Shown here piece after piece: positions 42,091 through 63,334 of a stretch of 64,000 nucleotides of DNA (positions are counted from its first letter, which is position 1; each line of letters starts with the position of its first letter). The position numbers and the translations under genes are program-made. The stretch is from Myxococcaceae bacterium (GTDB taxonomy: Bacteria > Myxococcota > Myxococcia > Myxococcales > Myxococcaceae): assembly GCA_019686135.1 (NCBI GenBank), contig JADGHL010000006.1, positions 1 through 64,000 of the forward strand, read 5' to 3'. The notes under the pieces were generated by a model. The model had not been told where the DNA came from. It was given only the letters and a program-made list of their open reading frames with translations, and did no database searches.

Positions 42091-45000
42091 CTACACGAGG
42101 TCGAGCGCGCAGGCGGCCACCGCGCGGAACGCGGCGCTCCGCCGCAGGATGGCGCCGATGTCCACCGCCTCCGGATCGCCCCCCCGGGCCTCGTCGTCCA
42201 GCAGCGCCAGCACCCGGCAGGCGGCCAGGGAGGCGGGGTGCGCATCGAACGCGGTCACCGCGGCGGTCACCAGCGCCTCGCCGACACCCGCTCCCTCGCG
42301 CGGCGGGCGAACCTCCGCGAGGCGGTGCCCGTCCGGCCCGAGCGCCAGCGCCAGCGCGCACAGCCAGGTCAGCTCCACCGGACCGAACGCGCCGAGCGCG
42401 CCCGCGCCGAGCACCAGCTCGTCCTCGGAGAGCAGCCACGCCTCGACGCCGCCGGACGGGTGCAGCCACAGCCGCATGCCGCCCGCCCCCAGCGTCTCCA
42501 GCGCGCCGCTGAGCGTGGCGAAGAGCCGCGGCATCGACGTGGCGGTGATGGCACACGCGCCCGCGGGGGCGGCGCGTTCGGGGAACGACTGCTTCGAACG
42601 GTCCAGCCGGGACAACGGCGCAGCGGGAGCGGGCGCACGGCTGCCGGTGAGCGCGGCGCCGAAGCCGTCCACGAGTCTCCGCGCGTCCTCACGGCCCAGC
42701 TGACCGAGCGCCTCGCCGAACAGGGTCCACCCATCCGCGTCGGTAGGCGTCTGGCGCAGGAGCTCCGGCCACAGCGTCACGGCGAAGGCGGCACCGTCGG
42801 AGGCCGGCGAGAGCCGCTCGGCCACCTCCCGCGCGACGCCGTGCGCCAGCGGGCCTTCGGCCATCAACCGTTCGCCCAGCCGAACCGCGAACGGCACGAG
42901 CTGCGCGCGCGCGTAGCCGACGAGGATGCCCTCCAGCGCGGGGCGGTCGGTGGTGACCTTCTCCCGAAGCTGGAGCGCCTCGCCGCCCAGCCCGAGCGAC
43001 TCCGCCAGCGCGGCGCGGCGGTGGATGCGCTCCGTCGTCTCGGGCAGCTCTGCGAGGAGCCGGTACGCGTCCGCGGTGCGGCCCAATGCCTCATACGCAT
43101 CCGCCAGTCGCTCGCGGTAGCCGGCGCTCGCGGCCGGGCCCACCAGCCGGGTGAGGCGCTCGGTCATCGCCACGAAGCGGAGGTGATCGTCCCCTTCGGC
43201 GAGCAGGTCCACGAGGTGCCGCACCGCGGCCACGTTGTGCAGATCCTCGGTGAGCGCCAGCTCGAACGCATCGCGCGCAAGGTCCTTGCGGTCCAGCGCG
43301 TGCAGGTAGAGCTCGCCCAGCTCGACGTGGAGCGCGCTCCGGGCGGGCAGATCGTCCTCCACCTCGAGGAGCGCCTCCAGCGCCCGCGCCGCCTCCTCCG
43401 CCTGCCCCGCATCCCGGCGGCGCTCGAACACCTCGCGCCACAGCGCCGCGCTGCGGTGCGGCCAGGCAGCCGCGGCCTGCTCCAGCGCCGAGAAGTCTCC
43501 GGCGGCCGCCGCTTCGCGCGCGCGGGAGAGCACCACGTCGATGAGCTCCGGCGCCGAAGTCTCGTCGATCCGTCCGAGCGCCCAGCGCACACCGTCTTCG
43601 CCGCGCACCTCCAGGCACCGGCGCAGCGCGGCCGCGGCCACCTCGGGGTCCTCGCAGTCGATGAGCTCTTCGAAGAGCGCGGCCGCCAGCACGTTCGCGC
43701 CCGCCGCCTCGCATGCCTGCGCCAGGCGGAGGCGTTCGGCGTGCGCGCCCGCGGACTCCAGCTTCTCTGCCAGCCTTTGGACGTGCGTCTCGTCCGCGTC
43801 CTTCTGCACCAGCGCCCAGAGGGCACGGGTTGCGGAGGCCTCGTCGCCGGCCCGGTCTGCGAGACGCAGCGCATCCTCCAGCCGGCCCTCCTCCAGCGCC
43901 ACCGCGAAGCCCGCCTTCAGCGCGCGGGCCTTATCGCCCAGCGCAAGGAACCGGTCGGCGAGCGCCTGCGGAGGCAACAGATCCGGATGTGCCTCGGCGA
44001 GCTGCTCGAGCGTCTCGGCCGCCTCGTCCTTCTCGCCCGCAGCCTCGAGCACCTCCACGGCCTTGAGCCGCAGCCCGGCGCGCGCGTCTTCGGAGGCCAG
44101 CTCGGCCGCGTCGAGCAAGGCGCGCGCGGCGCGATCCGCCTCGCCCCTTCGTTCGTGCAGCGTGGCGAGCAGCTGGAGCGCTACGAGCGACGGCCGGGTG
44201 GCGGTGGCCTCGCGGCACAACCTGAGCGCGCGTTGGAGATCGTCCGCACGCTCGAACGCGCGCGCGCCCTCCAGCAACAGCGCGGCGCGTGCCTCGCCGT
44301 CCGCCAGCGCCGCGCGCTTCTCCAGCACCTCCGCCAGCGCCGCAGGTTCATCGCCTCCGGCGAGCACCTCGCATAGCCCCTCGAGCGCCTGCACGTAGCC
44401 GTCGCCGCCCGGACCGCGCGCTGCGACCGCTTCTAGATCCGCGCGCGCCTCATTCGGTTGGCCGGCATCGAGCAGGAGCCTTGCGCGCTCCAGCCGGACC
44501 TGCGCCTGCGCGTCGCCCGGCTCGAGCGCCGCGGCCAGGTGCGCCAGGGTGTCGATCAACGCGGGATCGCCACGGCGCCGCTGGCCGTCCGCGAGCGCCC
44601 GGAGCGCGGCGGCGTTCGCCGGATCCAATTCGCCCGCGCGTTCGCGCAGCGCGTGCGCCTTCGCCTCGTCGGAGAGCTCGGCCTCGGCGATCTGCGCGGC
44701 CTCCAGCAGCCACGCGGCCGCCTGGGCGCCGCCGAGACTCTGGGCGCCGCGCTCGAGGAGATCCACCGCCTCCCCGGCGCGCCCCAGCTTCTTGAGCCCC
44801 GCGGCGGCGCGTTCAATCACCCGCGGATCGGACGGCCGGAGCCGGGCCAGCGGCACCAGCGCGTCGATCGCCTCCGCGGGATCGTCGAACAGCTCGGCGG
44901 CGCGCCGATACAGCGCCTCGGCCTCCTCGCCTTTTGCGCGCTCGGCGAGCAACAGCGAGGTCTGGAACAGCCCGGCGGTGTTCTGGGTGCGCGCGTGGAC

Positions 45001-48000
45001 CTCCGCGAGGAGCGAGAGCGCCTCGCGGCCCTTCTCGCCGTCCGGATCCAGCGCCACGACCGCGTCGAACGCATCCGCCGCGTCCTTCAACGCGCCGGCG
45101 CCGAGCGCGGCGTGCCCCAGACGCAGCTGCGCCTTGAGGCGGACGGGCACCGGGAGGCGATCGCCTCCGGCCGCGAGCAACCGCCGGTCGTACGGCTGCG
45201 CCGCGAGCGGGCCGCCCGCTTTGGCCGCCAGCTCGGCGCGGGCGGCGATCGCCTCCACGTCCTCACCGGCGGCGGAAAGCAGCTCGTCGAACGCCTCGGC
45301 GGCGAGCAGCTCCTCCCCCGCATCCAGCAGCACTTCCGCGCGCTCCTTGAGCCGCTGTACGCGCTCGGCCGGCACCGCGTGGGCCCGTTCGCGCAGGATG
45401 GCGGAGAGCCGCCGGACGTCGGTCGCCCGCGCGCGCACCGCTTCGAAAGCACGGTCGTTGGCGGCGGACGCGTCGAACGCGCGGTCCTCGCACAAAAGCG
45501 CCTGCTGCTGCGCGCCCGCTTTGCGGAAGGCATCCGCGGCGGCGAGGTAACGCCCGGCAGCGGCGGCCGCGCCCTCCTCTCCGAGCGCCTCCTCCGCCTC
45601 CGCACGGCGTAGGAGCAGCGCCGCCAGCTCGGGCCACTGGCGCGCGCCGGCGAGGTGCCGCTGGTGCCGTTCGAACACGCGCTCGCGGAAGGGATCCTCC
45701 TCCAGCAGGAGGGCGTCGAACTCCGCCGCGTCCGAAGGCCGGCCGGCCTCGTGGAGCAGATCGGCGCAGCGCGCGGTGAGCTCGAGGTCGTCCGGCTGCG
45801 AGGCGCGCGCGGCGAGGATTGCCGCGGCAGCGTCGTCCGGCCGGCCCGCGCGGTCCTTGTAGACGTGGGCCGCTTCCAGGAACAACCTGGCGCGCTCCTT
45901 CGGATCGGCGGTGTGCGCGGCGCGCTCCTCGAGGTGCTGCGCCAGCTCCGCCAGGCGGCCGTCGCGCTCCAAAGAGCGCACCAAAAGGGCCTCGGCCTCT
46001 TCGAGCGAGGGATCGATCGCGAGCGCCTGCCGCGCCGCCGCCTCCGCCTGGGCCGGCGCGGCGAGCGGACCGTCGAACAGCTTCGCCAGCGCGAGGAACG
46101 CCCGTGAACGTTCGGCGAGGTCGTCGTAGAGATCGATGGACCGTTCGATCCAGTCGGCCTCGGCGGCGGCGTCGTCCCTCCGCCGCGCGAGCTGTTCGCC
46201 CTGGCGGGCGACCTCCAGCGACGGCGACAGCTCAAACGCCTTCTGCAGCGCCGCTTCGGCGGCGTCGAGGTCCAGCCGCGCATCACGCAACAGCTCGGCG
46301 CGCCGGCGCTCGTACGAGGCCGCGCGGGCCAGGTCCCCTTCGTCCTCGCACAGCTCGCGCAGCCCCTGCAGCGTCCGGAGCGCCTCGTCCACGCGGCCGG
46401 ACTGCTCCGCCAGCGCGGCCTCCTCCTCCCACGCGGCGATCGCGCCCTCGTCGTCGCCTGCGGCGAGGCTCAGCTCTGCGACCTGTAGGAGCTCGTGCAT
46501 CAGCTCCTGCGTGCGGCCCGTCTCGCGGTGGAGCGCCACCAGCGCGCGGTGCGCTTCCAGCGGCGTGGCGGAGATCTCCGCCGCGCGCCGGAGAATCGCC
46601 GCGGTCAGCTCCACGTCCGCCAGCTCGGCGCGGGCGCGGCGGGCCAGCTCCTCCAGCACCGGGAGCGCGCGGCCGGGCTCCTCCACCGAACGCGCCCAGC
46701 CCCACAACACCTCGATCGACTCGCGCGGGCTCTTCGGCGCAAGGAGCGCGGACAGCCGCCTCGCCGCGGATTCGGATGCAGGCCGATGCCTCACGAGGCG
46801 CCGCAGCGCAGCCTCCGACAGCTCCACGTCGCCCGCCCGCTCCGCCAGCTCGGCCAGGCGAAGCTGCAGCGCCTCGGCGCGGTCGCCGCCCTCGGCGAGG
46901 TCCGCCGCTTCGGCCAGCCGCCGCGCCAACGGGACCGCCTCGCGGAAGTGACCGCCCTCGTGCAGCCTTGCGACGAGCGCCTCGGTGGCCTCGTCGTCCG
47001 CCTCCGGTTCCAGCGCGTGCGCGCGGCGCAAGAGCTCCAGCGCGAGCTCGCCGGCGTCCGCGCGGTGGGCGGCAAGGCCCAGCGTGCGCAGCACCCGCGC
47101 GCCGTCACCCGGCGACGAGAGCCCGGCGAGCGCTTCGGCGTGCTGCGCGGCCTGGACGAAGGCGCCCCGCTTCGCGAGCAACTCCACCAGCGTGCGCCGC
47201 GCGTCGGCGTGGCCCGGATCCAGCGCCGCCGCCTTCTCGAACGCCGCCTCCGCCGCCGCGTCGTTCCCCAGCTTCTCGAGGTACAGCGCGCCGAGCTCGG
47301 CGTGGAGCGCGGCCGCGCGCGCGCCTTCCGCCTGCGCTGCCTCGGCGTGAAGCAACGCGGCCAGGTCGTCCCAGCGCCCGAGCGCGGTGAGCGCTCGCTT
47401 CAGCCCGAGGGTGGCCTCGGGGTGATGCGGGGAGAGCTCGAGCGCGGCCTCCCAGGCCACGGCGGCGTCGGCTGGCGCGGTGGCTTCGAGGAGCGCGCCG
47501 CGGCGAAGGTGCGCCTGAAGCCGCTGCGCGGCGGGGCCCTGCTTCGAGGCTTCGAGGAGCGCCGCCGCCGCCTGCCCCGGGTTGCCCTGCTCAAGCGCAG
47601 CGTCCGCCAACCCCATCGCGGCGGCGCAGCGATCGTCCGCGGAGAGCGGCTGGGCCAGCGCCACGGTGAAGGCTTCCGCGGCGAGCGCGTGCTGACCCTG
47701 TTCGAGGGCGGCCTGGCCGATGGCCAGCGCGCGCGACGCGGCGAATTCGCGCAGGCCCGGCTCGTCCGCCGGCGCCGCGCGCCACACCTCCAGCTCGGCG
47801 CGCAGGTCGTTCGACTCCCGGGCCAGCTCCGCGAGCTGGCGGAGCGCTTCGGCCGGGTGACTCGCGGCAGCCGCGGCGGCGCGCAGATCCGTACGCGCCT
47901 CGTCCACGCGCCGCGCCGCCCGGTGGAGCTTCGCCCGGCGCAGGAGCAGCTCCGCGCGTTCGTCTCCCTGCGCCGGTTGAATCAAGAGGGACAGGAGCGC

Positions 48001-51000
48001 CAGGCGCTCGTCGTCCTGTGCGTTGGGCGGCAAAAGCCTGAGCAGCTGCCCCGCGGCCCAGAGGTTCTCCGGCTCCAGCTGAAGCAGCGCGCGCAGCGCC
48101 TCGGTCGCGGCCGCCGGGCGGCCCAGGTCGAGGCACAGCTCGGCGTACTCGCGGAGCACGGGACGCTGTTCCGCGACGGGCAGAAGCGGCCACAGCTCGG
48201 AGAGCTGATCCGCGAGCGCTTCGCGGGCGCCAGCCTTGCGGTGCAGAGCGGCCAGCTCCTTCTGCGCCTCGAGGTCGTCCGGGCGACGGGCCACATAGCC
48301 CCCGAGCAACCTCCGCGCGGTATCGCTGCGGCCGGCGCGCGCGGCGGCGCCGGCGGCCCGGCGCGTGAGCTGGAGCTTCTGCTCGTCGCCGGGCGCGTCC
48401 ACGTCCTCGACCGGGAGCGCAAGCACGGCCTCCAGGTCTTCGAGCGCCGCGCGCGGGTTCGTCTCCAGGACCAGCTCGGCGCGGCGGATGCGGGCGGGCG
48501 CAAAGCGTGGCTCGCGCTCCAGCGCGGCGGCCAGGTACTCCTCCTCGCGGGGCTGGCCGCGCGACAGCTCGGCGGCGCGGAAGAAGGTGCGCGCAGCGCC
48601 CCGCGGATCGTCGATGAGCGCGGCGCGGCGGGCGTACAGCCGGGCCGCTTCGCGGCGCGCGCCCCGCTCCAGCTCCAGCTCGGCGGTGGCCTCGAGGATC
48701 TCCCCCGCCAGCGGGCCCTGCGGCGCAGCCTCCAGCGCGGCGTTGAGGCGGAGAACCGCCGTGCCACGCTCGCCGGACTGAAGCAGCACGCGCGCGGACT
48801 TGAGGAACAGCGGCGCAGCGTCCTCGCCGCGGTCGTGTGCCACGAACGCCTGGGCCCGCGCGGCCCACAGCTCCGCCAGCGCCAGCGTCTCACCGCTCTC
48901 GCGGTAGAGCGCCTCCAGCCGGCCGGCGAGCTCGTCGTCCATCCGGCGCAGCGGGAACGCCTGGGCGTAGTGCTCCTTCGCCGCGTCGCGGTCGCCGAGC
49001 TGCTCGCACGCCCGGCCCAGCCGCGCGCGCACCTCGGCGATGCGTTCGGGCGCGGCGTTCGACGGCAGCGCCGCCAGCAGCTCTTCGAGGGCGAGGCGCG
49101 CGTTCTGCGGGCGGTCGCACCGGAGCGAGAGCTCGGCGAGCTCGAAGAGCAGCGCCGGGTCCGGAGAAAGGCGCGCGGCCTTCTCCAGCGCCACCAGCGC
49201 CTCGGCCACCCGGCCCAACCGGGCCTCAAGCACCTGGGCGAGCTCGCGCAGGGCGGCCGCGGCCAGCCGTTTGTCGCCGTGGGCTTCGGCCACGCGCGCG
49301 CGGCGCTCGAGCGCGGTGACCAGCCCGTTCATGTCCGCGCGCCGCCGCTGCAGCGCGCACAGCTCGCCGAGGGCGGAGAGGTCATCCGCCTCCACGGCGA
49401 GCACGCCCTCCAGCGCGCGCGCGGCCAGGTCGAGATCGAACGCGAGATCGCGCGCGGCCACCGCCAGCCGGCGCAGATGCCCCAGCTTCGTCTTCGGGTC
49501 CTGTTCGAGCTCAGCGAGCGCCTGGAGGCACCGGCACAGCTGCGCGCCGTCGCGATGGGCCTCGGCCAGCGCCAGCGTCCCCTCGAGCGCGACGCGGTTG
49601 TGCGGATCCGCCTCCAGCGCCGCGGCGTGGAGCTGCTCCGCGCGATCCGGGCGCGCCAGGCGGCCGCGGTACAGCTCCGCCGCCTCCGCCCACAGCGCCG
49701 CGCGCCGTTCGGGCGATTCGATGACCAGCGCCGCCTTCTCCAGCGCGTCGGCGAGCTCCGCGGTCTTTCCGGCGGCGCGGAAGTACGGCAAAAGCTCCTC
49801 GATCGCCGCGAGGTCCTTCGGGTCGAGCGCGAAGGCGGCTTCGAGGTGCTCTCTCGCGCGCGCCGGTTCGCTGAGGCGCGTGCGGTACAGCCGGGCCATC
49901 GCGTGGTGCGACTGGTGGGCGATGGCGCGGATGGCCTCGTCGCGCGGCGCGGGACCGGCGAGCTCGATCGCCTGCTGGTAGCCGGCCACCGCCTCCTGCA
50001 GCTTGCCCAGCTTCTCCGCGACGCGCGCAGCGAGGAACAACGGCTCCGGATCGCCCGGCAACAGCGAGGTCGCCTCGCGGTAGCGCAGAAGCGCGTTCTC
50101 CGGCTGGCCCAGCCCCTGCTCCCAGACCTTCCCGGCGAGCACGTTGGCGCGGCCGATCCGATCCACCTCGTGGCGCCCGAGCGCGACCTCGCGGAGCCGG
50201 TCGAGCGACTTGATGGCGCGCAGGTGCTCGCCCGCGCGGTGGCACAGCTCGGCGAGCTGGTAGAGCGCCTCGGGGTGGTTGGGGGAGAGCTTGAGGGCGG
50301 CCTCGCAGTGCAGCCGCGCGCCGGCGACGTCGTCCTCGGTGAGCGCGCACAGCCGCGCCATGTGCACGTGCGCGTCCGCTGCCTCGGAGGGGTCGCGCGC
50401 CAGCGCGGCGATGCGGCGCCACGCGCGGATGGCCCCGGCGCGGTCGTTGGCCTGATCCGCCGCGCGGGCCAGCGCCTTGAGCGAGGGGAGGTGATCCGGC
50501 TTGAGGCCGAGCACCTCGTGGAGCGCGCGCACCGCCATCTGCGGCGCCTGGTCGCGGGCAGATCGCGCCGCGGACTCGGCGGCGAAGAACGCGGAGGCCT
50601 CCTCCTGGGCGCGCCGGGCCATCGCGCAGAGCGCGAGGTACCGTTCCGCGGCGCGGGCGGACTCGCCGCGGCGTTCGCGCACCACCGCCTCCGCCCACTG
50701 CGCGGTGGCGCTCCGCTCGCGCCGGCGCGCCAGTGTTGCCGCCACGTCCAGCGCCAGCTCGTGCGCCTGCGGATCGGCGACGAGAAGCGTGAGCAGCCGC
50801 TCGATGGCGAACGGGTGCGCTTCGGTGACGTCGCCGTGCTTGAGGTACGCCTCGCGCGCTTCGGCGAGCCGGCCCTGCGCAAGCAGCTCCTCCGCTTCGG
50901 CGAAGGCGCGCGCGCCCTCGAGCGCCAACATCAGCTCTTCGTCCGGCGGCGAGGCCGGGGGCAACCCGCCCGCGGCGAAGCGCAGCTTCAGCCCGGCGCT

Positions 51001-51657
51001 GCTGACCTCTGCCGCGGAGAGCCGCGCCTGATCCAGCGAGGGCATCTTGTACCCGCGGCCCACCGCCGCCAGCTCCACCAGGGAAGGGAGGATGCGCGTG
51101 GAGAAGCCAGACGCGCCGCGGAGGTCGACCTCCGGCAGAAGCTCCAGGTCCTTGACCGCCCGCGACAGGAGCACCGCCACCTGGGCCGCCGGCGTGGTGG
51201 AGAAGCCGTAGAGGCGGACGTCGTAGACGTAGACCGCGAGCCGTTCGCCGTCCGCGTCGAAGGCGAGCTTGAAGGTGATGGGCGAGCGATCGCCTGAGGT
51301 GAAGCGCGCCTGCCCTTCGAGGTAGCCGGGGCGGAAGTGCAGCTTGAGCTCGTCCAGCTCGCTGATGCGCCCGGCGAGCTGCGCCACCCTGCGCGCGACG
51401 AGCTCCGCGTCGACGGTGACCTCGAGGAACCCGAAGGCGAGCTTCTTCTTCTGGTACTTCGACGCGCCGCCGGTGAACGAGAACGGGAAGCTGACCTCGG
51501 GGATCTGCAGCGCGAAGTCGGTGATGGACAGGCCCGGGGTGACCGGCAGCGGCGGGAAGCCGACGAACGCCCGGCGGTCGATGAGGCGCAGCTCGGGCCC
51601 GGCGGAGACCTGGGCCTCCGCTTTCTGCTTCGTCTGGGGATCGCGCTCGGACGCCAT
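42091..51657 (-). CDS. Giant TPR-repeat protein, 3188 residues
   Basis: A 3188-residue protein with no signal peptide. Residues about 1-225 are a beta-rich domain different from the rest (VTPGLSITDFALQIPEVSFP, LKLHFRPGYLEGQARF, TFKLAFDADGERLAVYVYDV). From about residue 225 onward the protein is almost entirely TPR-like helical pairs, rich in alanine, leucine, glutamate and arginine, with frequent ALxLxPxxxxA, AxxYxxAxxLxP and ALEAAxxxxP patterns. The last 350 residues are less regular and end in AACALDLV. It is probably cytoplasmic, or exported by a route not seen here. Huge TPR proteins occur in myxobacterial motility and development, but a specific role cannot be assigned. The frame and start are clear. 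Confidence 0.8.
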   Translation of the reverse strand: MASERDPQTKQKAEAQVSAGPELRLIDRRAFVGFPPLPVTPGLSITDFALQIPEVSFPFSFTGGASKYQKKKLAFGFLEVTVDAELVARRVAQLAGRISELDELKLHFRPGYLEGQARFTSGDRSPITFKLAFDADGERLAVYVYDVRLYGFSTTPAAQVAVLLSRAVKDLELLPEVDLRGASGFSTRILPSLVELAAVGRGYKMPSLDQARLSAAEVSSAGLKLRFAAGGLPPASPPDEELMLALEGARAFAEAEELLAQGRLAEAREAYLKHGDVTEAHPFAIERLLTLLVADPQAHELALDVAATLARRRERSATAQWAEAVVRERRGESARAAERYLALCAMARRAQEEASAFFAAESAARSARDQAPQMAVRALHEVLGLKPDHLPSLKALARAADQANDRAGAIRAWRRIAALARDPSEAADAHVHMARLCALTEDDVAGARLHCEAALKLSPNHPEALYQLAELCHRAGEHLRAIKSLDRLREVALGRHEVDRIGRANVLAGKVWEQGLGQPENALLRYREATSLLPGDPEPLFLAARVAEKLGKLQEAVAGYQQAIELAGPAPRDEAIRAIAHQSHHAMARLYRTRLSEPARAREHLEAAFALDPKDLAAIEELLPYFRAAGKTAELADALEKAALVIESPERRAALWAEAAELYRGRLARPDRAEQLHAAALEADPHNRVALEGTLALAEAHRDGAQLCRCLQALAELEQDPKTKLGHLRRLAVAARDLAFDLDLAARALEGVLAVEADDLSALGELCALQRRRADMNGLVTALERRARVAEAHGDKRLAAAALRELAQVLEARLGRVAEALVALEKAARLSPDPALLFELAELSLRCDRPQNARLALEELLAALPSNAAPERIAEVRARLGRACEQLGDRDAAKEHYAQAFPLRRMDDELAGRLEALYRESGETLALAELWAARAQAFVAHDRGEDAAPLFLKSARVLLQSGERGTAVLRLNAALEAAPQGPLAGEILEATAELELERGARREAARLYARRAALIDDPRGAARTFFRAAELSRGQPREEEYLAAALEREPRFAPARIRRAELVLETNPRAALEDLEAVLALPVEDVDAPGDEQKLQLTRRAAGAAARAGRSDTARRLLGGYVARRPDDLEAQKELAALHRKAGAREALADQLSELWPLLPVAEQRPVLREYAELCLDLGRPAAATEALRALLQLEPENLWAAGQLLRLLPPNAQDDERLALLSLLIQPAQGDERAELLLRRAKLHRAARRVDEARTDLRAAAAAASHPAEALRQLAELARESNDLRAELEVWRAAPADEPGLREFAASRALAIGQAALEQGQHALAAEAFTVALAQPLSADDRCAAAMGLADAALEQGNPGQAAAALLEASKQGPAAQRLQAHLRRGALLEATAPADAAVAWEAALELSPHHPEATLGLKRALTALGRWDDLAALLHAEAAQAEGARAAALHAELGALYLEKLGNDAAAEAAFEKAAALDPGHADARRTLVELLAKRGAFVQAAQHAEALAGLSSPGDGARVLRTLGLAAHRADAGELALELLRRAHALEPEADDEATEALVARLHEGGHFREAVPLARRLAEAADLAEGGDRAEALQLRLAELAERAGDVELSEAALRRLVRHRPASESAARRLSALLAPKSPRESIEVLWGWARSVEEPGRALPVLEELARRARAELADVELTAAILRRAAEISATPLEAHRALVALHRETGRTQELMHELLQVAELSLAAGDDEGAIAAWEEEAALAEQSGRVDEALRTLQGLRELCEDEGDLARAASYERRRAELLRDARLDLDAAEAALQKAFELSPSLEVARQGEQLARRRDDAAAEADWIERSIDLYDDLAERSRAFLALAKLFDGPLAAPAQAEAAARQALAIDPSLEEAEALLVRSLERDGRLAELAQHLEERAAHTADPKERARLFLEAAHVYKDRAGRPDDAAAAILAARASQPDDLELTARCADLLHEAGRPSDAAEFDALLLEEDPFRERVFERHQRHLAGARQWPELAALLLRRAEAEEALGEEGAAAAAGRYLAAADAFRKAGAQQQALLCEDRAFDASAANDRAFEAVRARATDVRRLSAILRERAHAVPAERVQRLKERAEVLLDAGEELLAAEAFDELLSAAGEDVEAIAARAELAAKAGGPLAAQPYDRRLLAAGGDRLPVPVRLKAQLRLGHAALGAGALKDAADAFDAVVALDPDGEKGREALSLLAEVHARTQNTAGLFQTSLLLAERAKGEEAEALYRRAAELFDDPAEAIDALVPLARLRPSDPRVIERAAAGLKKLGRAGEAVDLLERGAQSLGGAQAAAWLLEAAQIAEAELSDEAKAHALRERAGELDPANAAALRALADGQRRRGDPALIDTLAHLAAALEPGDAQAQVRLERARLLLDAGQPNEARADLEAVAARGPGGDGYVQALEGLCEVLAGGDEPAALAEVLEKRAALADGEARAALLLEGARAFERADDLQRALRLCREATATRPSLVALQLLATLHERRGEADRAARALLDAAELASEDARAGLRLKAVEVLEAAGEKDEAAETLEQLAEAHPDLLPPQALADRFLALGDKARALKAGFAVALEEGRLEDALRLADRAGDEASATRALWALVQKDADETHVQRLAEKLESAGAHAERLRLAQACEAAGANVLAAALFEELIDCEDPEVAAAALRRCLEVRGEDGVRWALGRIDETSAPELIDVVLSRAREAAAAGDFSALEQAAAAWPHRSAALWREVFERRRDAGQAEEAARALEALLEVEDDLPARSALHVELGELYLHALDRKDLARDAFELALTEDLHNVAAVRHLVDLLAEGDDHLRFVAMTERLTRLVGPAASAGYRERLADAYEALGRTADAYRLLAELPETTERIHRRAALAESLGLGGEALQLREKVTTDRPALEGILVGYARAQLVPFAVRLGERLMAEGPLAHGVAREVAERLSPASDGAAFAVTLWPELLRQTPTDADGWTLFGEALGQLGREDARRLVDGFGAALTGSRAPAPAAPLSRLDRSKQSFPERAAPAGACAITATSMPRLFATLSGALETLGAGGMRLWLHPSGGVEAWLLSEDELVLGAGALGAFGPVELTWLCALALALGPDGHRLAEVRPPREGAGVGEALVTAAVTAFDAHPASLAACRVLALLDDEARGGDPEAVDIGAILRRSAAFRAVAACALDLV

Positions 51658-55704: not shown

Positions 55705-55840
55705 GGCCGGCGCAACATGCCCCAGCGCCCGCGCCGCGCAAGTCGCCTCCGCACGGCCGCCAACAGCCAGACGAATGGCTCCGGTGATCGCGACGGCCGC
55801 ATGGCCCGGGCGACGCGGTGGTGTATGGTGTCCGGCCCCC

Positions 55841-56866
55841 ATGCTTCTGCTGCGTGACGTCCAGAGGAGCGACCTGCCCGGCCTGCGCCGGCTCGCCGCC
55901 GTGCTCAACACGATGAACCTCCCCAACGACGAGGAGGCGCTGGAGGCCATCATCGACAAGTCGGTGAAGAGCTTCGCGGGGAGGATCCGCAATCCGCTCG
56001 AGCGCGAGTACCTCTTCGTGCTGGAGGACGTGCGCAACGAGCTCATCATCGGCACGAGCATGATCATCGCGCAGCACGGCACGCGCGAGGCGCCGCACAT
56101 CTTCTTCGAGGTCTCCGAGCGCGAGCACTACTCGGCGTCCATCGACAAGCACTTCAAGCACAAGGTGCTGTCGATTGGTTACAACTACGACGGCCCCACG
56201 GAGATCGGCGGGCTGGTGGTGGACCCGCCGTACCGCAGCACCGAGTACAAGCCTGGCAAGCAGCTCTCCTACGTGCGGTTCCTCTTCATCGCGATGCACC
56301 GGAAGCTGTTCCGCGACCGCGTACTGGCGGAGCTGTTGCCGCCGTTGATGCCGGACGGGCGTTCGCACCTGTGGGAGTCGGTGGGCGCCAAGTTCACCGG
56401 GCTGACGTACCAGGAGGCGGACCTCCTCTCCCGGAAGAACAAGGAGTTCATCAAGGAGCTGTTCCCCAGCACGGACATCTACGCCACGCTGTTCCCGAAG
56501 AAGTCGCAGGAAGTGCTGGGCGAGGTGGGCCCCGAGACGCGCGGCGTGCAGCGGATGCTGGAGCGCATCGGCTTCCGCTACGTGGAGCGGATCGACCCGT
56601 TCGACGGTGGCCCGCACTTCGAAGCGAACGTCGACGACGTGACGCTGATCCGGAAGTTCCGCACCGCCCGCGTGCTGGACGAGGACCTCGAGCTCGACGC
56701 GGACGACATGCTGGTGGGCATCAACCGCGACTCGCCGCGCAACCGGTTCCGCGCGGTCCGCTGCAACGTCCGCGTGGACGCGCGCGGGGCGATGCTGCCG
56801 AAGACGGCGAAGGAGTTGCTGGACCTGGAGGCAGGCGACAAGGTGTCGCTCATCCCGTTCGAGTAG
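55841..56866 (+). CDS. astA: Arginine N-succinyltransferase homologue
   Basis: A 341-residue protein of the AstA family, matching E. coli AstA in length. Family strings are EIGGLVVDPPYRSTEYKPGK, YVRFLFIAMHRKLFRDRV, HLWESVGAKFTGLTYQEADL, IYATLFPKKSQEVLGEVGPE and ERIDPFDGGPHFEANVDDVT. AstA succinylates arginine (or ornithine) in the arginine catabolic pathway. None of astB, astC, astD or astE is in the window. It is divergent from argC-argB, so a degradative or salvage enzyme and the biosynthetic pair face each other across 136 bases. It may have a different substrate. The ATG at 55841 is favoured; the frame stays open upstream only as an arginine-rich tail. Confidence 0.85.
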   Translation: MLLLRDVQRSDLPGLRRLAAVLNTMNLPNDEEALEAIIDKSVKSFAGRIRNPLEREYLFVLEDVRNELIIGTSMIIAQHGTREAPHIFFEVSEREHYSASIDKHFKHKVLSIGYNYDGPTEIGGLVVDPPYRSTEYKPGKQLSYVRFLFIAMHRKLFRDRVLAELLPPLMPDGRSHLWESVGAKFTGLTYQEADLLSRKNKEFIKELFPSTDIYATLFPKKSQEVLGEVGPETRGVQRMLERIGFRYVERIDPFDGGPHFEANVDDVTLIRKFRTARVLDEDLELDADDMLVGINRDSPRNRFRAVRCNVRVDARGAMLPKTAKELLDLEAGDKVSLIPFE

Positions 56867-58242: not shown

Positions 58243-58788
58243 GTGGACACGCGGCTGACCTTCTCTCAGACGGTCGAGACGCTCTTCACGCGGGGGATGG
58301 GGCCGGCGCTTCCGCCGGAGGCGAAGGCGAGGCTCCGCGATGATGGGCTCGATCTCGATCGACCGCTCTTGCCGGCATATCCGGCGGGGAAGGTGGCGGA
58401 GTGGATCGATCTCGCCCTGCCCTACGCGTTCCCGAACCTCTCGCGCGCCGAGGCACTCCGCGTGCTGGGTCACCAGAGCGTGAGCCGCTACGGCCAGACG
58501 ATCGTCGGCCGGGGACTGGTGGCCATGCTCAAGCTCCTTGGGTTCCGCCGCATCCTCGACCGGATGCCCCAGGCCATGCGCACCGGCGGGAACTACCTCG
58601 AGACGAAGCTCATCCCGCGCGGCGTCAACGACGTGGAGCTGTGGATCAACGACGTCAACGGGATGCCCGAATACTTCCAGGGCATCCTCGAGGGCACCGC
58701 GGAGCTGTGCGGCATCAAGACCGCGCGCGCAGAGATCGTCTCCGTGGAGGGCACCGGCTGCACGCTCCGCGTCCGCTGGGCGGAGTAG
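58243..58788 (+). CDS. DUF2378 (TIGR02265) family protein
   Basis: A 181-residue member of the DUF2378 family, a paralogous family known essentially from myxobacteria. Typical strings: FSQTVETLFTRGMGPALPPE, RALALRVLGHQSVSRYGQT-like (seen as AEALRVLGHQSVSRYG), GFRRILDRMPQAMRTGGNYL, NDVELWINDVNGMPEYFQGI and GTGCTLRVRWAE at the end. It resembles a haem-NO-binding-like small-molecule domain in length only, and no function is established. GTG 58243 gives the right length. It is convergent with the lytic transglycosylase, with seven bases between stops. Confidence 0.85.
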   Translation: MDTRLTFSQTVETLFTRGMGPALPPEAKARLRDDGLDLDRPLLPAYPAGKVAEWIDLALPYAFPNLSRAEALRVLGHQSVSRYGQTIVGRGLVAMLKLLGFRRILDRMPQAMRTGGNYLETKLIPRGVNDVELWINDVNGMPEYFQGILEGTAELCGIKTARAEIVSVEGTGCTLRVRWAE

Positions 58789-58794
58789 CGGCGG

Positions 58795-59601
58795 CTACAT
58801 CTTCTCCGCGCTGCCGTTCAGCTTCTTCAGCCGCTCGTACACCTGCAGCACGCGCGGCGCGTAGCCGTTGCGCGGATCGCGCCCCTTCACCAGCGCGTTG
58901 TCCACCGGCCCCGGGCCGCGGTTGTACGCGGTCAGCGCCAGCTCGGTGTCCTTGTACATCTCCTGGTAGAAGCCGAGGACCTGCAGCCCGTACTGGATGC
59001 TCACCTCGGGATCGCGCAGGTCGCCCTGGATCCCCAGCACCTTCTTCCAGTGCGGCATCACCTGCATCAGCCCCACCGCGCCCGCGGGCGACTCCGCCTT
59101 CGGGTTGAAGTCCGACTCCACCGTCATGATCGCCAGCGCGAGATCGGGATCGCGGTGGTACAGCGTGCAGTACTGGTGCACCGACCGGGCGATCCGCCGC
59201 GCCAGCTCGGGATCGAGCGTCGGTTTGAGCACCATCATCTTCAGGAAGATGACGTCCTCGCCGGTGTGGCTGGCGACCAGCTGCCGCACCGCGCTCACCT
59301 CCTTCTCCACGCCGTCCTGCTGCGCGTGGAGCGCGGTGAGCTGGCCCGAAAGCGCGTTTAGCTTCGCCGCCGTGGCCTCGTGCTGCGCGAGCGCCTCGTG
59401 CCGCGCGTCGATCACCAAGTTCCGCACCACCAGCACGCCGGCGATCAACGCCGCCAGCGCCACGACCTGCAGCGCGAGGAGGACCCGGAAGCCGCGCCCG
59501 CTCGCGGTCCACTCCCGCGAAGCGCCTGCGTCGATCACGACCGGCCGGGTGGTCTCCTCGTTCCAGCCGGTGGCTGCTTCGAGCTCCTGCGCGCTTTCCA
59601 T
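58795..59601 (-). CDS. Membrane-anchored lytic transglycosylase
   Basis: A 268-residue protein with one N-terminal membrane helix (about 37-60, VLLALQVVALAALIAGVLVV), a short coiled stretch (about 62-105) and an SLT-type lysozyme-like domain. The catalytic glutamate is in IMTVESDFNPKAESPAGAVG, followed by GLMQVMPHWKKVLGI, IQYGLQVLGFYQEMY and LALTAYNRGPGPVDN. It cleaves peptidoglycan glycan strands in the periplasm while anchored in the inner membrane. The ATG at 59601 is chosen because GGAGG lies five bases before it; an ATG at 59640 would add 13 residues without a site. It is divergent from the chemoreceptor fusion. Confidence 0.9.
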   Translation of the reverse strand: MESAQELEAATGWNEETTRPVVIDAGASREWTASGRGFRVLLALQVVALAALIAGVLVVRNLVIDARHEALAQHEATAAKLNALSGQLTALHAQQDGVEKEVSAVRQLVASHTGEDVIFLKMMVLKPTLDPELARRIARSVHQYCTLYHRDPDLALAIMTVESDFNPKAESPAGAVGLMQVMPHWKKVLGIQGDLRDPEVSIQYGLQVLGFYQEMYKDTELALTAYNRGPGPVDNALVKGRDPRNGYAPRVLQVYERLKKLNGSAEKM

Positions 59602-59606
59602 GTCGT

Positions 59607-59611
59607 CCTCC
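59607..59611 (-). promoter_or_regulatory. Ribosome site fixing the lytic transglycosylase start
   Basis: GGAGG on the minus strand lies five bases before ATG 59601. It favours that start over the in-frame ATG at 59640. Confidence 0.65.
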
Positions 59612-59784
59612 GGTTTGGGCCGAGCGGGGAGATGCGTCATGCCCGGGCGGTCGGCAACCCGCGGTGGGGGACACCCCGGAAACGGTGTGGATGTTCCGGT
59701 GACGCTGCACAGAGCGCGTCGGCTTCCGGTCAGATGAGGGGTGCGCCTCCGTCGCCGGTTTCCGGCTACTGTGGGGGCGACGAC

Positions 59785-62700
59785 ATGGGCTCACGCCGCT
59801 TCCTCTTCACGTTCGGTGTCCTCGGCGGACTGTGCTCCGGGGTGCTCACCGGGATCGTCCTCACCCTCGCTGGGGACGTGCACCTGCCGAAGATCACCTG
59901 GCCCGCCCTGCTCTGCTCCAACGTCGTCGGCTTCACGCTGGGCGGCTATCTCACCTGGTTCAAGTGGGCCACCGCGCGGGCGCGCCGGCGCGCGAAGATC
60001 CTCGCCGACCTCGCGCAGAACGACCTCACCGTGAACGTGGCCCGCAGCATCGACGGGTCGAACGACATCCGCCGCCTCATCCTCTCCTTGCGCCGAGCGC
60101 TCGCGCAGGTGCAGCGGGTCACCGGCAACGTGCACCGGACCTGCAAAGACGTGGGCGAACAGGCGCGGATGCTGATGGAGGCCGCGCGCCGGCAGGGTGC
60201 CGCAGTCGATCGCACGCTCGGCGCGGTCAGCGGGATGGGCGAATCGCTCCAGGCAGCGGGCCGCCGCGTCGGGCAGCTGGAGACATTCGCGCAGGAGACC
60301 ACCGCGGCGCTCGCGGAGATGACCGAGCGCATCGAGCAGGTGGCCTCGGCGCTCACCACGCTCAACGAGTTCGCCCACCGCACCTCCGAACAGGTCCAGC
60401 AGATGAGCGAACGGCTGAGCGCGATCGCCTCCTCCGGCGAGGCGCTGGTGCGGTTCGCGGGCGAGGCGGAGAGCTTCGTCGCCGCGGTGGAGGGCGGGAT
60501 CGAATCGGTGCGGCGCCGCGCGAACGAGACCGGCGATCTCGCGCGCGAGGTCACCGCCACCGCGGAGCGCGGGCAGGCGCTGGTGATCGACTCGGTGAAG
60601 GCGATGTACGGGATCGAGGAGACGGTGCGCCGGGCCGCGGAGATCGTCGACTCGCTCGGCACGCGGTCCAACGACATCGCGCGCATCGTCGACGTCATCC
60701 AGGAGATCGCCGACCAGACCCACCTGCTGGCCCTGAACGCGGCGATCATCGCCGCGCAGGCGGGGGAGAACGGGCGCGCCTTTGGCGTGGTGGCGGACGA
60801 GGTCCGCGGTCTGGCCGAACGCACCGCGCGCTCCACCCGGGAGATCGCCACGCTGGTGGCCGGGGTGCGCAACGAGGTCGAGACCGCGGTCGCCCTGGTG
60901 AAGGACGCGCGCGAACAGGCCTCGGGCGGCGTGGAGCACGCCGACCGCGCGTCGCTCGCGCTCAACGAGATCCGCGCCATCACGCGGAAGACCTTCGCCG
61001 CGGTGGAGAGCACCGTGGCGGAGACGGCGCGGCTGGAGAAGCAGGGCAAGTCCGTGGGCGAGGCGTCGCGCCGGGTGGGCCGTCAGGTCGACGAGGTCAC
61101 CCGCGCCGCTGCGGAACAGGTCAGCCACGGGCGCGAGCTGGTGCGCCAGACGCAGGAGATGGCGCGCCTCGCGGAGAGCGCCTCCAGCAAGGCGGAGGAC
61201 CAGGCGCGCACCGGGCGCGACCTCTCCGACTCGGTCCTCCGGCTCACCGCGGCGATCGACGAGATCCGCAGCGCGCACCAGGTCCTCACCCGCGGGGACG
61301 TGGCCATCTCCGAAGAGGTGGCCACCGTCCGCGAAGATGCGCGGCAGGTCATCCGCATCGGCGACAACCTCTCACGCAGCATCGATCTGCTCTCGCAGGA
61401 GGCGGACGGGCTGGAGGCGGAGGTCTTCCGCTTCAAGCTGCCCGAACCGCGCCGCGGCGGCGTGTTGCGCGTGGGCATCCACCAGTCGGAGATGTTCGAG
61501 TCCACCCGCGGGCTGGATCCGCTGTTCACGCTCGACAACCAGCTGGTGGAGATCAGCGCCAACCTCTTCAGCGGCCTGCTCCGCAACCACGACGGGATGC
61601 TGGTCCCGGATCTCGCCGAACGCTGGGAGGCGGATCCCTCCGCACGCCGCTACCGCTTCCACCTGCGCCGCGGCGTCACCTTCCACGACGGGTCCCGCTT
61701 CACCGCGCACGACGTGAAGCGCCACTTCGAGCGGCTGCTCGATCCCGCGGTGAAGTCGCCCAACCAGTGGATCCTCAAGGACGTGGAGGGCGCGCCGGAC
61801 TTCATCGACGGCCGGGCGGACGGCGTTGCGGGGATCGAGGTGCTGGACGACACCACCCTGGAGATCCGCCTGCAGGAGCCGAAGGCGTTCTTCCTCCACC
61901 TCGTCACGCTCCCGGACACGGCGATCGCCCGGCAGGGACCGGACGGCCGGAGCATCGGCACCGGGCCGTTCCGGCCCACCCGCATCGACCGCGGGGGCAT
62001 CGTCCTCGAGCGCAACCTCGCCTACTTCCGCCCCGACGTGCCGCTGCTCGACCGGCTCGAGTTCCACCTCTTCAACGACCGCGCCGAGGCGCTCCAGCAC
62101 CTGGTCGAGAACCGCGTGGATCTGGTCTCCGGCCTGTACGCCGAACACCTCGCCGCGGCGGCGCTCGACGACTACCAGGTGCTCGGCGGGAGCACGCCGT
62201 CGTGCTGGTTCCTCGCCTTCAACGTGCGCGAGCCACCGTTCAACGACGTCCGCGTGCGCAAGGCGATCCGCGCCGGGCTCGACCGCGCGGCGGTGGTGGA
62301 GCACTTCCACCCGGGCGCGCGCGTGGCGGTGTCCCTCACCCCGCCGGAGCTCCTGGACGACCCCGACCGTCCCCAGGCGCCGACGGTGGATCTCGCGCTC
62401 GCGCGCCGGCTGCTCCAGGAGGCGGGGCTGAGCCGGCTGCGGATGACCGTGTACTACCCGTCCGGCCGCAACACCGAGGCCGAGGACGCGGTGCTCTTCC
62501 GGCCATTGGTTGAGGAGGGCCTGCTGGAGGTCCAGCACGTCGAGCTCCGCTCCGCCGACTACTGGGAGCGCGCGCGCGAAGGGCGCATCCCGGTGTTCCG
62601 CAGCGGGTGGATCGCCGACTACCCGGACCCGGACAACTTCCTCTACTTCCTGCTCAACTCGAACGCGCAGTCGGTCTACGCGCTCCAGTACTCGAGCGCC

Positions 62701-62928
62701 GAGCTGGACCAGCTCACCGCCGAGGCGCGGGTGTCGATCGACCCCGAGCTCCGCCAGCAGCTCTACCGGCGGGCCGAACGCGTGGTGATGCAGGACTGCC
62801 CGCTCATCCCGCTCTACCACGAGCGGATCTGGGCGGTGGCCACGCCGCTGGTGCAGGGTCTGCGTCTCCACCAGACCCCGCCGCAGGTGAGGTTCGAGAA
62901 CCTCTGGGTCGACACGACCGAGCACTGA
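59785..62928 (+). CDS. Chemoreceptor fused to a family-5 solute-binding domain
   Basis: A 1047-residue fusion. Two hydrophobic helices (about 6-28 and 36-54) are separated by a loop of only about eight residues; the N-terminus and the segment after helix 2 (ATARARRRAK) are both basic, so both ends face the cytoplasm. A degenerate HAMP-like stretch follows (NDLTVNVARSIDGSNDIRRL), then an MCP signalling domain to about 550, whose tip (about 308-340) reads QTHLLALNAAIIAAQAGENG. Residues about 555-1045 are a complete SBP_bac_5 peptide-binding fold (RRGGVLRVGIHQSEMFES, DDTTLEIRLQEPKAFFLH, SIGTGPFRPTRIDRGGIVLE, PLIPLYHERIWAVATPLV). No signal peptide or helix separates them, so the binding domain should be cytoplasmic. 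Such receptors control CheA kinases, here probably in response to a cytosolic or membrane-near ligand. Confidence 0.82.
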   Translation: MGSRRFLFTFGVLGGLCSGVLTGIVLTLAGDVHLPKITWPALLCSNVVGFTLGGYLTWFKWATARARRRAKILADLAQNDLTVNVARSIDGSNDIRRLILSLRRALAQVQRVTGNVHRTCKDVGEQARMLMEAARRQGAAVDRTLGAVSGMGESLQAAGRRVGQLETFAQETTAALAEMTERIEQVASALTTLNEFAHRTSEQVQQMSERLSAIASSGEALVRFAGEAESFVAAVEGGIESVRRRANETGDLAREVTATAERGQALVIDSVKAMYGIEETVRRAAEIVDSLGTRSNDIARIVDVIQEIADQTHLLALNAAIIAAQAGENGRAFGVVADEVRGLAERTARSTREIATLVAGVRNEVETAVALVKDAREQASGGVEHADRASLALNEIRAITRKTFAAVESTVAETARLEKQGKSVGEASRRVGRQVDEVTRAAAEQVSHGRELVRQTQEMARLAESASSKAEDQARTGRDLSDSVLRLTAAIDEIRSAHQVLTRGDVAISEEVATVREDARQVIRIGDNLSRSIDLLSQEADGLEAEVFRFKLPEPRRGGVLRVGIHQSEMFESTRGLDPLFTLDNQLVEISANLFSGLLRNHDGMLVPDLAERWEADPSARRYRFHLRRGVTFHDGSRFTAHDVKRHFERLLDPAVKSPNQWILKDVEGAPDFIDGRADGVAGIEVLDDTTLEIRLQEPKAFFLHLVTLPDTAIARQGPDGRSIGTGPFRPTRIDRGGIVLERNLAYFRPDVPLLDRLEFHLFNDRAEALQHLVENRVDLVSGLYAEHLAAAALDDYQVLGGSTPSCWFLAFNVREPPFNDVRVRKAIRAGLDRAAVVEHFHPGARVAVSLTPPELLDDPDRPQAPTVDLALARRLLQEAGLSRLRMTVYYPSGRNTEAEDAVLFRPLVEEGLLEVQHVELRSADYWERAREGRIPVFRSGWIADYPDPDNFLYFLLNSNAQSVYALQYSSAELDQLTAEARVSIDPELRQQLYRRAERVVMQDCPLIPLYHERIWAVATPLVQGLRLHQTPPQVRFENLWVDTTEH

Positions 62929-62983: not shown

Positions 62984-63334
62984 ATGTCGAATCGACGCTT
63001 CGTTCCCCGGCAGCGGCGGCGGCTGAAGATCTCCCTCGGCGGGCTGTGCCCGGCGTTCACCGCGGACGTCTCGCCCGGCGGCTTCGCCGCGGAGACGATG
63101 CAGCCGCGCAAGCCCGGCACCATGGTGCACGGGTCCATCACCCTCGAGGGCCGCGAGTTCGACTTCACCGGAGAGGTCTCCTGGGCGCGCGCGGGCGATC
63201 CGCGGCTGTCCATCCGCGGCCGCTTCGGCGTGCGCTTCACCGGGATCGACCCGGAGTTCTACGAGCTGTTCCGCGCCACCTTCGGCCCGTCCGTCCCGGC
63301 GGTGGAGCTGCCGGATGGGCCCGACGACGCGTAG
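62984..63334 (+). CDS. Small PilZ-domain protein
   Basis: A 116-residue single PilZ domain. The c-di-GMP binding motifs are both present: RxxxR (R9 to R13 in RQRRR) and DxSxxG (D28, S30 and G33 in DVSPGG), followed by FTGEVSWARAGDPRL and FGVRFTGIDPEF, typical of the barrel. Length fits a stand-alone adaptor protein in the cytoplasm. It lies 55 bases after the chemoreceptor fusion on the same strand, so the two may share a transcript and link c-di-GMP to chemotaxis-like signalling. The start ATG gives the basic lead MSNRRFVPRQRRR. Confidence 0.88.
   Translation: MSNRRFVPRQRRRLKISLGGLCPAFTADVSPGGFAAETMQPRKPGTMVHGSITLEGREFDFTGEVSWARAGDPRLSIRGRFGVRFTGIDPEFYELFRATFGPSVPAVELPDGPDDA

Follow-up and report, generated by a model that had tools for sequence, protein, structure and literature searches.

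The gene at positions 59785–62928 (+) of the 64,000-nt stretch of Myxococcaceae DNA analysed here (the window) is, judging by its sequence, this myxobacterium's mcpK and encodes the orthologue of McpK (MXAN_6456) from Myxococcus xanthus. We consider it somewhat probable that its product is a non-adapting sensor of a peptide-like ligand in the cytosol, that it is derived from a receptor of the McpJ (MXAN_5907) type and that it feeds the Che8 chemosensory system. Che8 is one of eight such systems in M. xanthus, and a 2022 paper gives its function as unidentified (PMC9040617). Its kinase, CheA8, reportedly takes part in the phosphorylation of MXAN_4468, an orphan regulator that controls the transcription of groEL (PMC9040617).

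Open reading frames were called across the window and Pfam matches were judged by the curated cut-offs. The gene is a single unbroken frame that runs from an ATG at 59785 to a stop codon ending at 62928 and encodes a protein of 1047 aa with the order first transmembrane helix (TM1), second transmembrane helix (TM2), degenerate HAMP, long methyl-accepting chemotaxis protein (MCP) hairpin and family-5 solute-binding protein (SBP) domain (Table 1). Only two Pfam families exceed their curated cut-offs in this protein: (i) MCPsignal (PF00015) at residues 251–430, with an E-value of 5e-36 and 124.5 bits against a cut-off of 34.6, and (ii) SBP_bac_5 (PF00496) at residues 606–961, with an E-value of 3e-69 and 234.5 bits against a cut-off of 32.4. 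The AlphaFold model of the full-length monomer has helices at residues 4–29 and 38–77, a connector at 78–91, long helices at 92–547 and an α/β SBP fold beginning at residue 559. Pfam misses a HAMP domain in residues 61–110; the alignment to the McpJ HAMP and the helix–connector–helix arrangement in the model identify this segment as a degenerate HAMP. The hairpin arms extend for ∼218 residues on either side of a tip that reads ADQTxLLALNAAIIAAQAGExGRxFGVVA, where I322 and Q325 replace the canonical E and R and are invariant in 21 homologues. Pfam and AlphaFold therefore bear out an MCP domain followed by a complete family-5 SBP domain at the C-terminus, as read in the original prediction, which was made from the sequence of the window.

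A homologue is present in 88 of the 96 genomes of the family to which the window belongs (the Myxococcaceae, judging by its named relatives Myxococcus, Corallococcus, Archangium, Pyxidicoccus and Hyalangium), and most copies are full-length (1045–1055 aa), a few being truncated by contig ends. Further homologues are found beyond the family in four genomes of the same class (G036, G043, G145 and G146) and in the Acidobacteriota, where the order of two membrane helices, hairpin and SBP domain and the sequence of the tip are the same at ∼30% identity; the distribution outside the Myxococcia is a lower bound. The shared architecture in the Acidobacteriota and the conservation across the family indicate that the arrangement is old and stable and no local accident. 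Dozens of independent genomes have the unbroken fusion, which rules out a frameshift or an assembly join of two genes and confirms that this is a genuine single gene. One otherwise complete genome (G119, L229 on contig G119:C4) has an mcpK frame broken at the MCP/SBP junction, at residues 557/558, a single case, either real or of assembly origin. McpK and McpJ are both absent from five family members (G012, G024, G020, G033 and G140), the last three of which have genomes of 2.1–2.7 Mb where MCP, CheA and CheW proteins were all undetectable.

The copy in M. xanthus AM003 (L046:6594–9737) encodes 1048 aa and is colinear with the window protein at 62% identity over 1043 residues. This length and colinearity fit McpK, which was tabulated in 2014 as a protein of 1048 aa with an MCP region at 246–463 and a ‘Bacterial extracellular solute-binding proteins domain’ (PMC3945109, Table 1). 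In that study McpK was not among the ten receptors that were localised, its function was given as unknown and it was tentatively placed with DifA in the Dif system by length class (PMC3945109). Our literature search for the combination of MCP and SBP_bac_5 returned this table as its sole match, and no work on McpK after it was found. The suggestion that the window encodes an undescribed sensing system is not supported as far as the protein itself is concerned, since the orthologue has been on record since 2014 and is conserved across the Myxococcaceae.

The hairpin of McpK is closely matched by that of McpJ. Residues 95–552 align with an McpJ-like receptor of M. xanthus (L109) over 458 columns with zero gaps and 28% identity, a comparison that concerns the equal length of the two hairpins and leaves the formal heptad class aside. 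L109 appears to be McpJ itself, its frame, MCP position and HAMP fitting the published 723-aa protein, to which it was matched by these features. In hairpin alignments, McpJ proteins score 201–230 bits and DifA scores 102 bits with 36 gap positions. The tip sequence NAAIIAAQ is common to McpK and McpJ only, among the receptors compared; FrzCD has NATIEAAR(AGE), DifA has NAALEGSR and the remaining receptors examined have variants of NAxIEAAR. A tree built by maximum likelihood from 38 hairpin cores places McpJ and McpK in one clade with 93/84 support, short of full support, and the McpK rows of the Myxococcia and the Acidobacteriota in one clade with 96/81. McpJ proteins terminate with EVRRFxV and a stop codon exactly where McpK has EVFRFKLP followed by the SBP domain. 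This coincidence suggests that the receptor gained the SBP domain at its natural C-terminus, and the simplest reading of the alignments is an addition to an McpJ-like receptor that would also have lost its N-terminal (periplasmic) sensor.

The position of the SBP domain relative to the membrane is predicted from hydropathy. Two N-terminal membrane helices with basic flanks had been noted in the original prediction, and hydropathy agrees: basic residues precede TM1 and follow TM2, with the same pattern in 18 homologues, and the loop between the two helix cores is 5–14 residues long across the homologues examined. Beyond residue 80 of the window protein no segment resembles a membrane span by hydropathy, and neither a signal sequence nor a later hydrophobic segment is found ahead of the SBP domain. 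The predicted topology is thus N-in/C-in, which agrees with the earlier proposal that the SBP domain faces the cytoplasm.

Modelled alone from 24 homologues, the SBP domain forms a complete two-lobed fold with a mean pLDDT of 90. The closest solved structures are GbpA, DppA, MppA and OppA, together with AapF, at Z-scores of 37–38 (maximum 38.3), and VIA-align superposes the domain on OppA, DppA, MppA and GbpA with Z-scores of 34–38 and rmsd values of 2.4–4.5 Å over >450 residues. The closest solved SBPs bind glutathione or di-, tri- or oligopeptides, but opine-, nickel- and sialic-acid-binding SBPs follow close behind in the fold match and the ligand is therefore not fixed by the fold alone. 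In the OppA segment RAGWCAD, the Asp binds the amino terminus of the peptide and the Arg can bind a carboxylate. A profile alignment places this segment on RSGWIAD of McpK (residues 939–945). Of the 20 McpK-type rows extending over this position, all have D945 and 18 have R939. Fold and residues are consistent with the peptide-like ligand proposed earlier and suggest a cytosolic ligand that is peptide-like or amino-acid-like. No transporter gene was recognised among the genes adjoining mcpK.

Support for Che8 as the output comes from a survey of receptors, kinases and CheW proteins. Two genomes, G021 and G006, have three receptors only (McpJ, FrzCD and McpK) and two kinase clusters only, namely Frz and a receptor-less CheA–CheW–CheW cluster; Dif is absent from both. 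The M. xanthus counterpart of the receptor-less cluster encodes a CheA of 862 aa, a CheW of 188 aa and a CheR of 290 aa, which are the exact lengths of CheA8, CheW8b and CheR8. A 659-aa HEAT-repeat protein is encoded beside CheR8 in the same cluster (L228:8971–10950). Che8 has no associated MCP in Table 1 of PMC3945109, and PMC6194562 says the same of Corallococcus. All 10 McpK-containing genomes checked have a CheA8 orthologue, at 54–77% identity outside M. xanthus compared with 33–40% for other CheAs; it is absent from G012 and G024, which are without McpK and McpJ and have other CheAs. Of the 92 genomes with McpK, 90 also have McpJ, which is the more widespread of the two and occurs in genomes without McpK as well. 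Because the tip of McpK matches that of McpJ, the two probably belong to one array served by CheW8a/b and CheA8, and the co-occurrence, tip, hairpin length and phylogeny together point to both as receptors of Che8. We infer, therefore, that McpK signals with McpJ to Che8, which gives the earlier idea of a report to a Che array a more specific, though inferred, form.

McpJ and McpK differ markedly in their putative methylation sites. Sites matching the consensus in McpJ (e.g. that of G000, L225:6905–9136) form a ladder with a 28-residue repeat on both arms, symmetric about the tip, at positions −176, −148, −120 and −92 and at +98, +126, +154 and +182. The mean count is 1.2 in 20 Myxococcaceae McpK proteins versus 6.1 in 11 McpJ proteins (p 5e-6, uncorrected for kinship), as scored with a relaxed consensus derived from enteric bacteria. 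The sites in McpK are no commoner than in shuffled sequence (1.4–2.2), and the Acidobacteriota homologues L056 and L092 retain five or six, partly at the same positions. McpK thus seems to have lost the canonical methylation sites after the fusion. Such a loss is expected of a sensor that follows a level and not a change: without the ladder, McpK should signal how much ligand there is in absolute terms, and its methylation-based adaptation should be slight or absent. Methylation sites are usual but not required in MCPs, TlpD and Tm14 being without canonical sites.

Taken together, these results lead us to propose the following mechanism. McpK would be held in the inner membrane by its two helices with almost nothing outside, and the MCP hairpin and the OppA/DppA-type domain would both lie in the cytoplasm, as the predicted topology implies. 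A cytosolic peptide-like or amino-acid-like ligand would close the SBP clamp. Closure may then alter the packing of the C-terminal helix beside the HAMP segment, because the SBP domain joins this helix where it returns beside HAMP, and the signal would be carried to the tip by a route like the one reported for TlpD and its C-terminal CZB domain (PMC12871147). The output would go to CheW8a/b and CheA8 in an array shared with McpJ, and methylation-based adaptation of McpK would be weak or absent. It is also possible, and we offer this more tentatively, that McpK serves as an internal nutrient gauge that does not adapt and feeds the absolute intracellular ligand level into the receptor-less Che8 system beside the adapting McpJ. 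If so, McpK would to our knowledge be the first case in which a domain of the periplasmic-binding-protein type provides chemosensory input from within the cytoplasm, one common to the Myxococcia and the Acidobacteriota.

Several observations weigh against this proposal. The full-length AlphaFold monomer reaches a mean pLDDT of 74.8, which is only moderate. D945 also occurs in most SBP-5 proteins, among them some that do not bind peptides, and so supports an amino-acid- or peptide-like ligand without proving it. The methylation consensus is borrowed from other bacteria and the loss of adaptation therefore stands as a prediction. The mcpK gene does not adjoin the che8 genes, the genome G142 (85% complete) has Che8 and McpJ and no McpK, and the co-occurrence of CheA8 and McpK was checked in few genomes and is confounded by shared ancestry. 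Our literature search found no ligand, CheW-binding or topology experiments on McpK. Two features of the published description also point elsewhere: three TM helices are given for McpK, and the protein is grouped with DifA in length class 44H (PMC3945109). Were the SBP domain outside the cell, either a hydrophobic helix of the MCP region would cross the membrane or TM2 would fail to insert, and in addition to the published third helix, some members have a TM2 of only moderate hydrophobicity, and in some orthologues residues 354–372 are hydrophobic. These residues sit in the conserved hairpin beside the tip, within the gapless alignment to McpJ, and a helix there could hardly both cross the membrane and serve CheA/CheW. 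The basic flanks agree with N-in/C-in as well, and we regard an external SBP domain as extremely improbable. A different possibility is that the SBP domain binds no small ligand and instead docks a protein, such as a peptide importer on its cytoplasmic face, or only spaces receptors. SBPs do dock on ABC transporters and the ligand of McpK is not known; however, the domain is complete, its pocket positions, including R939, W942 and D945, are conserved, and SgrR and DsvR have a domain of this kind in the cytoplasm, where it presumably senses a ligand, which makes docking or spacing unlikely.

The alternative outputs are Dif and Frz. McpK could form a module with DifA and signal to Dif, which acts in exopolysaccharide production, as the shared length class and a common MCP group 1 were taken to suggest (PMC3945109), and McpK and DifA do both occur in many of the genomes checked. 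However, the alignment of DifA to McpK is gapped whereas that of McpJ is gapless, the DifA tip NAALEGSRAGEAGKGFSIV is unlike that of McpK and the tree test rejects a clade uniting McpK and DifA (p-AU 4e-45). Moreover, McpK is present in G021 and G006 without a Dif receptor or kinase, and Dif is present in G012 without McpK. We reject the published assignment on the alignment and the tree test and consider signalling to Dif quite improbable. Frz, which accompanies Che8 as a kinase cluster in G021 and G006, could receive the McpK signal at least in Dif-less genomes, but FrzCD has its own cluster, a differing tip (NATIEAARAGE) and a gapped alignment to McpK, and G012 has Frz without McpK; we find this output very unlikely. 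Che8, shared with McpJ, remains the output that we favor.

Table 1. Features of the mcpK gene and its product in the window
Feature	Position	Strand	Basis
mcpK orthologue, TM-TM-HAMP-like-MCP-SBP_bac_5 chemoreceptor, 1047 aa	59785..62928	+	Open reading frame, Pfam, orthologues
TM1, residues 4–29	59794..59871	+	Hydropathy; helix in model
TM2, residues 38–60, then basic stretch ARARRRAK	59896..59964	+	Hydropathy, model
Degenerate HAMP, residues 61–110	59965..60114	+	McpJ HAMP alignment; helix–connector–helix in model
MCP coiled-coil hairpin, residues 111–547	60115..61425	+	Pfam, model, gapless McpJ alignment
Hairpin tip, CheA/CheW-binding region, residues 309–347	60709..60825	+	Alignments
Tip signature IIAAQ (canonical IEAAR), residues 321–325	60745..60759	+	Alignments; receptor comparison
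Fusion point EVFRFKLPEPRRGG, residues 546–559	61420..61461	+	McpJ proteins stop here (EVRRFxV-stop)
SBP family-5 (OppA/DppA-type) domain, residues 559–1044	61459..62916	+	Pfam, model, VIA-align
R939–D945 (RSGWIAD)	62599..62619	+	Profile alignment to OppA RAGWCAD; conservation

The arginine N-succinyltransferase gene astA (PF04958, E 1.5e-102) is found at 55760–56866 (+) of the window; in most relatives it lies on the same strand upstream of mcpK, and in G006 and G026 it adjoins mcpK directly. As a clue to the ligand this neighborhood is too weak to name one, and neither a transporter gene nor a che gene was seen to travel with mcpK in the flanks of the relatives. Between the conserved neighbors and mcpK, the window has genes for a DUF2378 protein and for a lytic transglycosylase (SLT), at 58243–59640, for which tblastn found no match in the flanks of the loci of 17 relatives. 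A small gene encoding a PilZ domain follows at 62984–63334 (+), 55 bp downstream of mcpK, and adjoins mcpK in two close relatives only (L027 and L028). A very long open frame of 3188 codons was called mechanically at 42091–51657 (−).

Naming McpK and McpJ as likely receptors makes Che8 testable and corrects the published assignment. If our reading is right, a binding domain of the kind used for nutrient uptake has been turned inward in McpK and reports the state of the cell to a chemosensory array, in bacteria that choose growth, predation or fruiting by the supply of amino acids and peptides. That McpK seems to have lost its methylation sites leads directly to a prediction about receptors with no need of adaptation.

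Compared with known systems, the window protein is of the same family, length and domain order as M. xanthus McpK and nothing essential differs, although the 2014 table left the C-terminal, cytoplasmic position of the domain undiscussed (PMC3945109). McpJ is alike in hairpin length, in the tip NAAIIAAQ and in having its end motif at the same point, but it has a recognisable HAMP domain with a long N-terminal region before it, a methylation-site ladder and no SBP domain. OppA, DppA, MppA and GbpA share the fold and the terminus-binding residues; they are exported and feed ABC importers, whereas the SBP domain of McpK forms part of a receptor and lacks an export signal. The order of domains, described in the original prediction as the reverse of that in normal receptors, is indeed unusual but not unique. 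SgrR and DsvR are cytoplasmic regulators with a C-terminal SBP_bac_5 domain (PMC13060122), although their output is DNA binding rather than a chemosensory kinase, and the N-terminal DNA-binding domain of an SgrR-type regulator is absent from McpK, which starts with TM-TM-HAMP-like-MCP according to Pfam and the model. TlpD of Helicobacter pylori and other CZB chemoreceptors likewise carry a cytoplasmic sensor C-terminal to the MCP hairpin (PMC12871147), but this sensor is the CZB domain, a small zinc-binding helical bundle, and TlpD is a soluble protein with an N-terminal PAS domain and no SBP domain.

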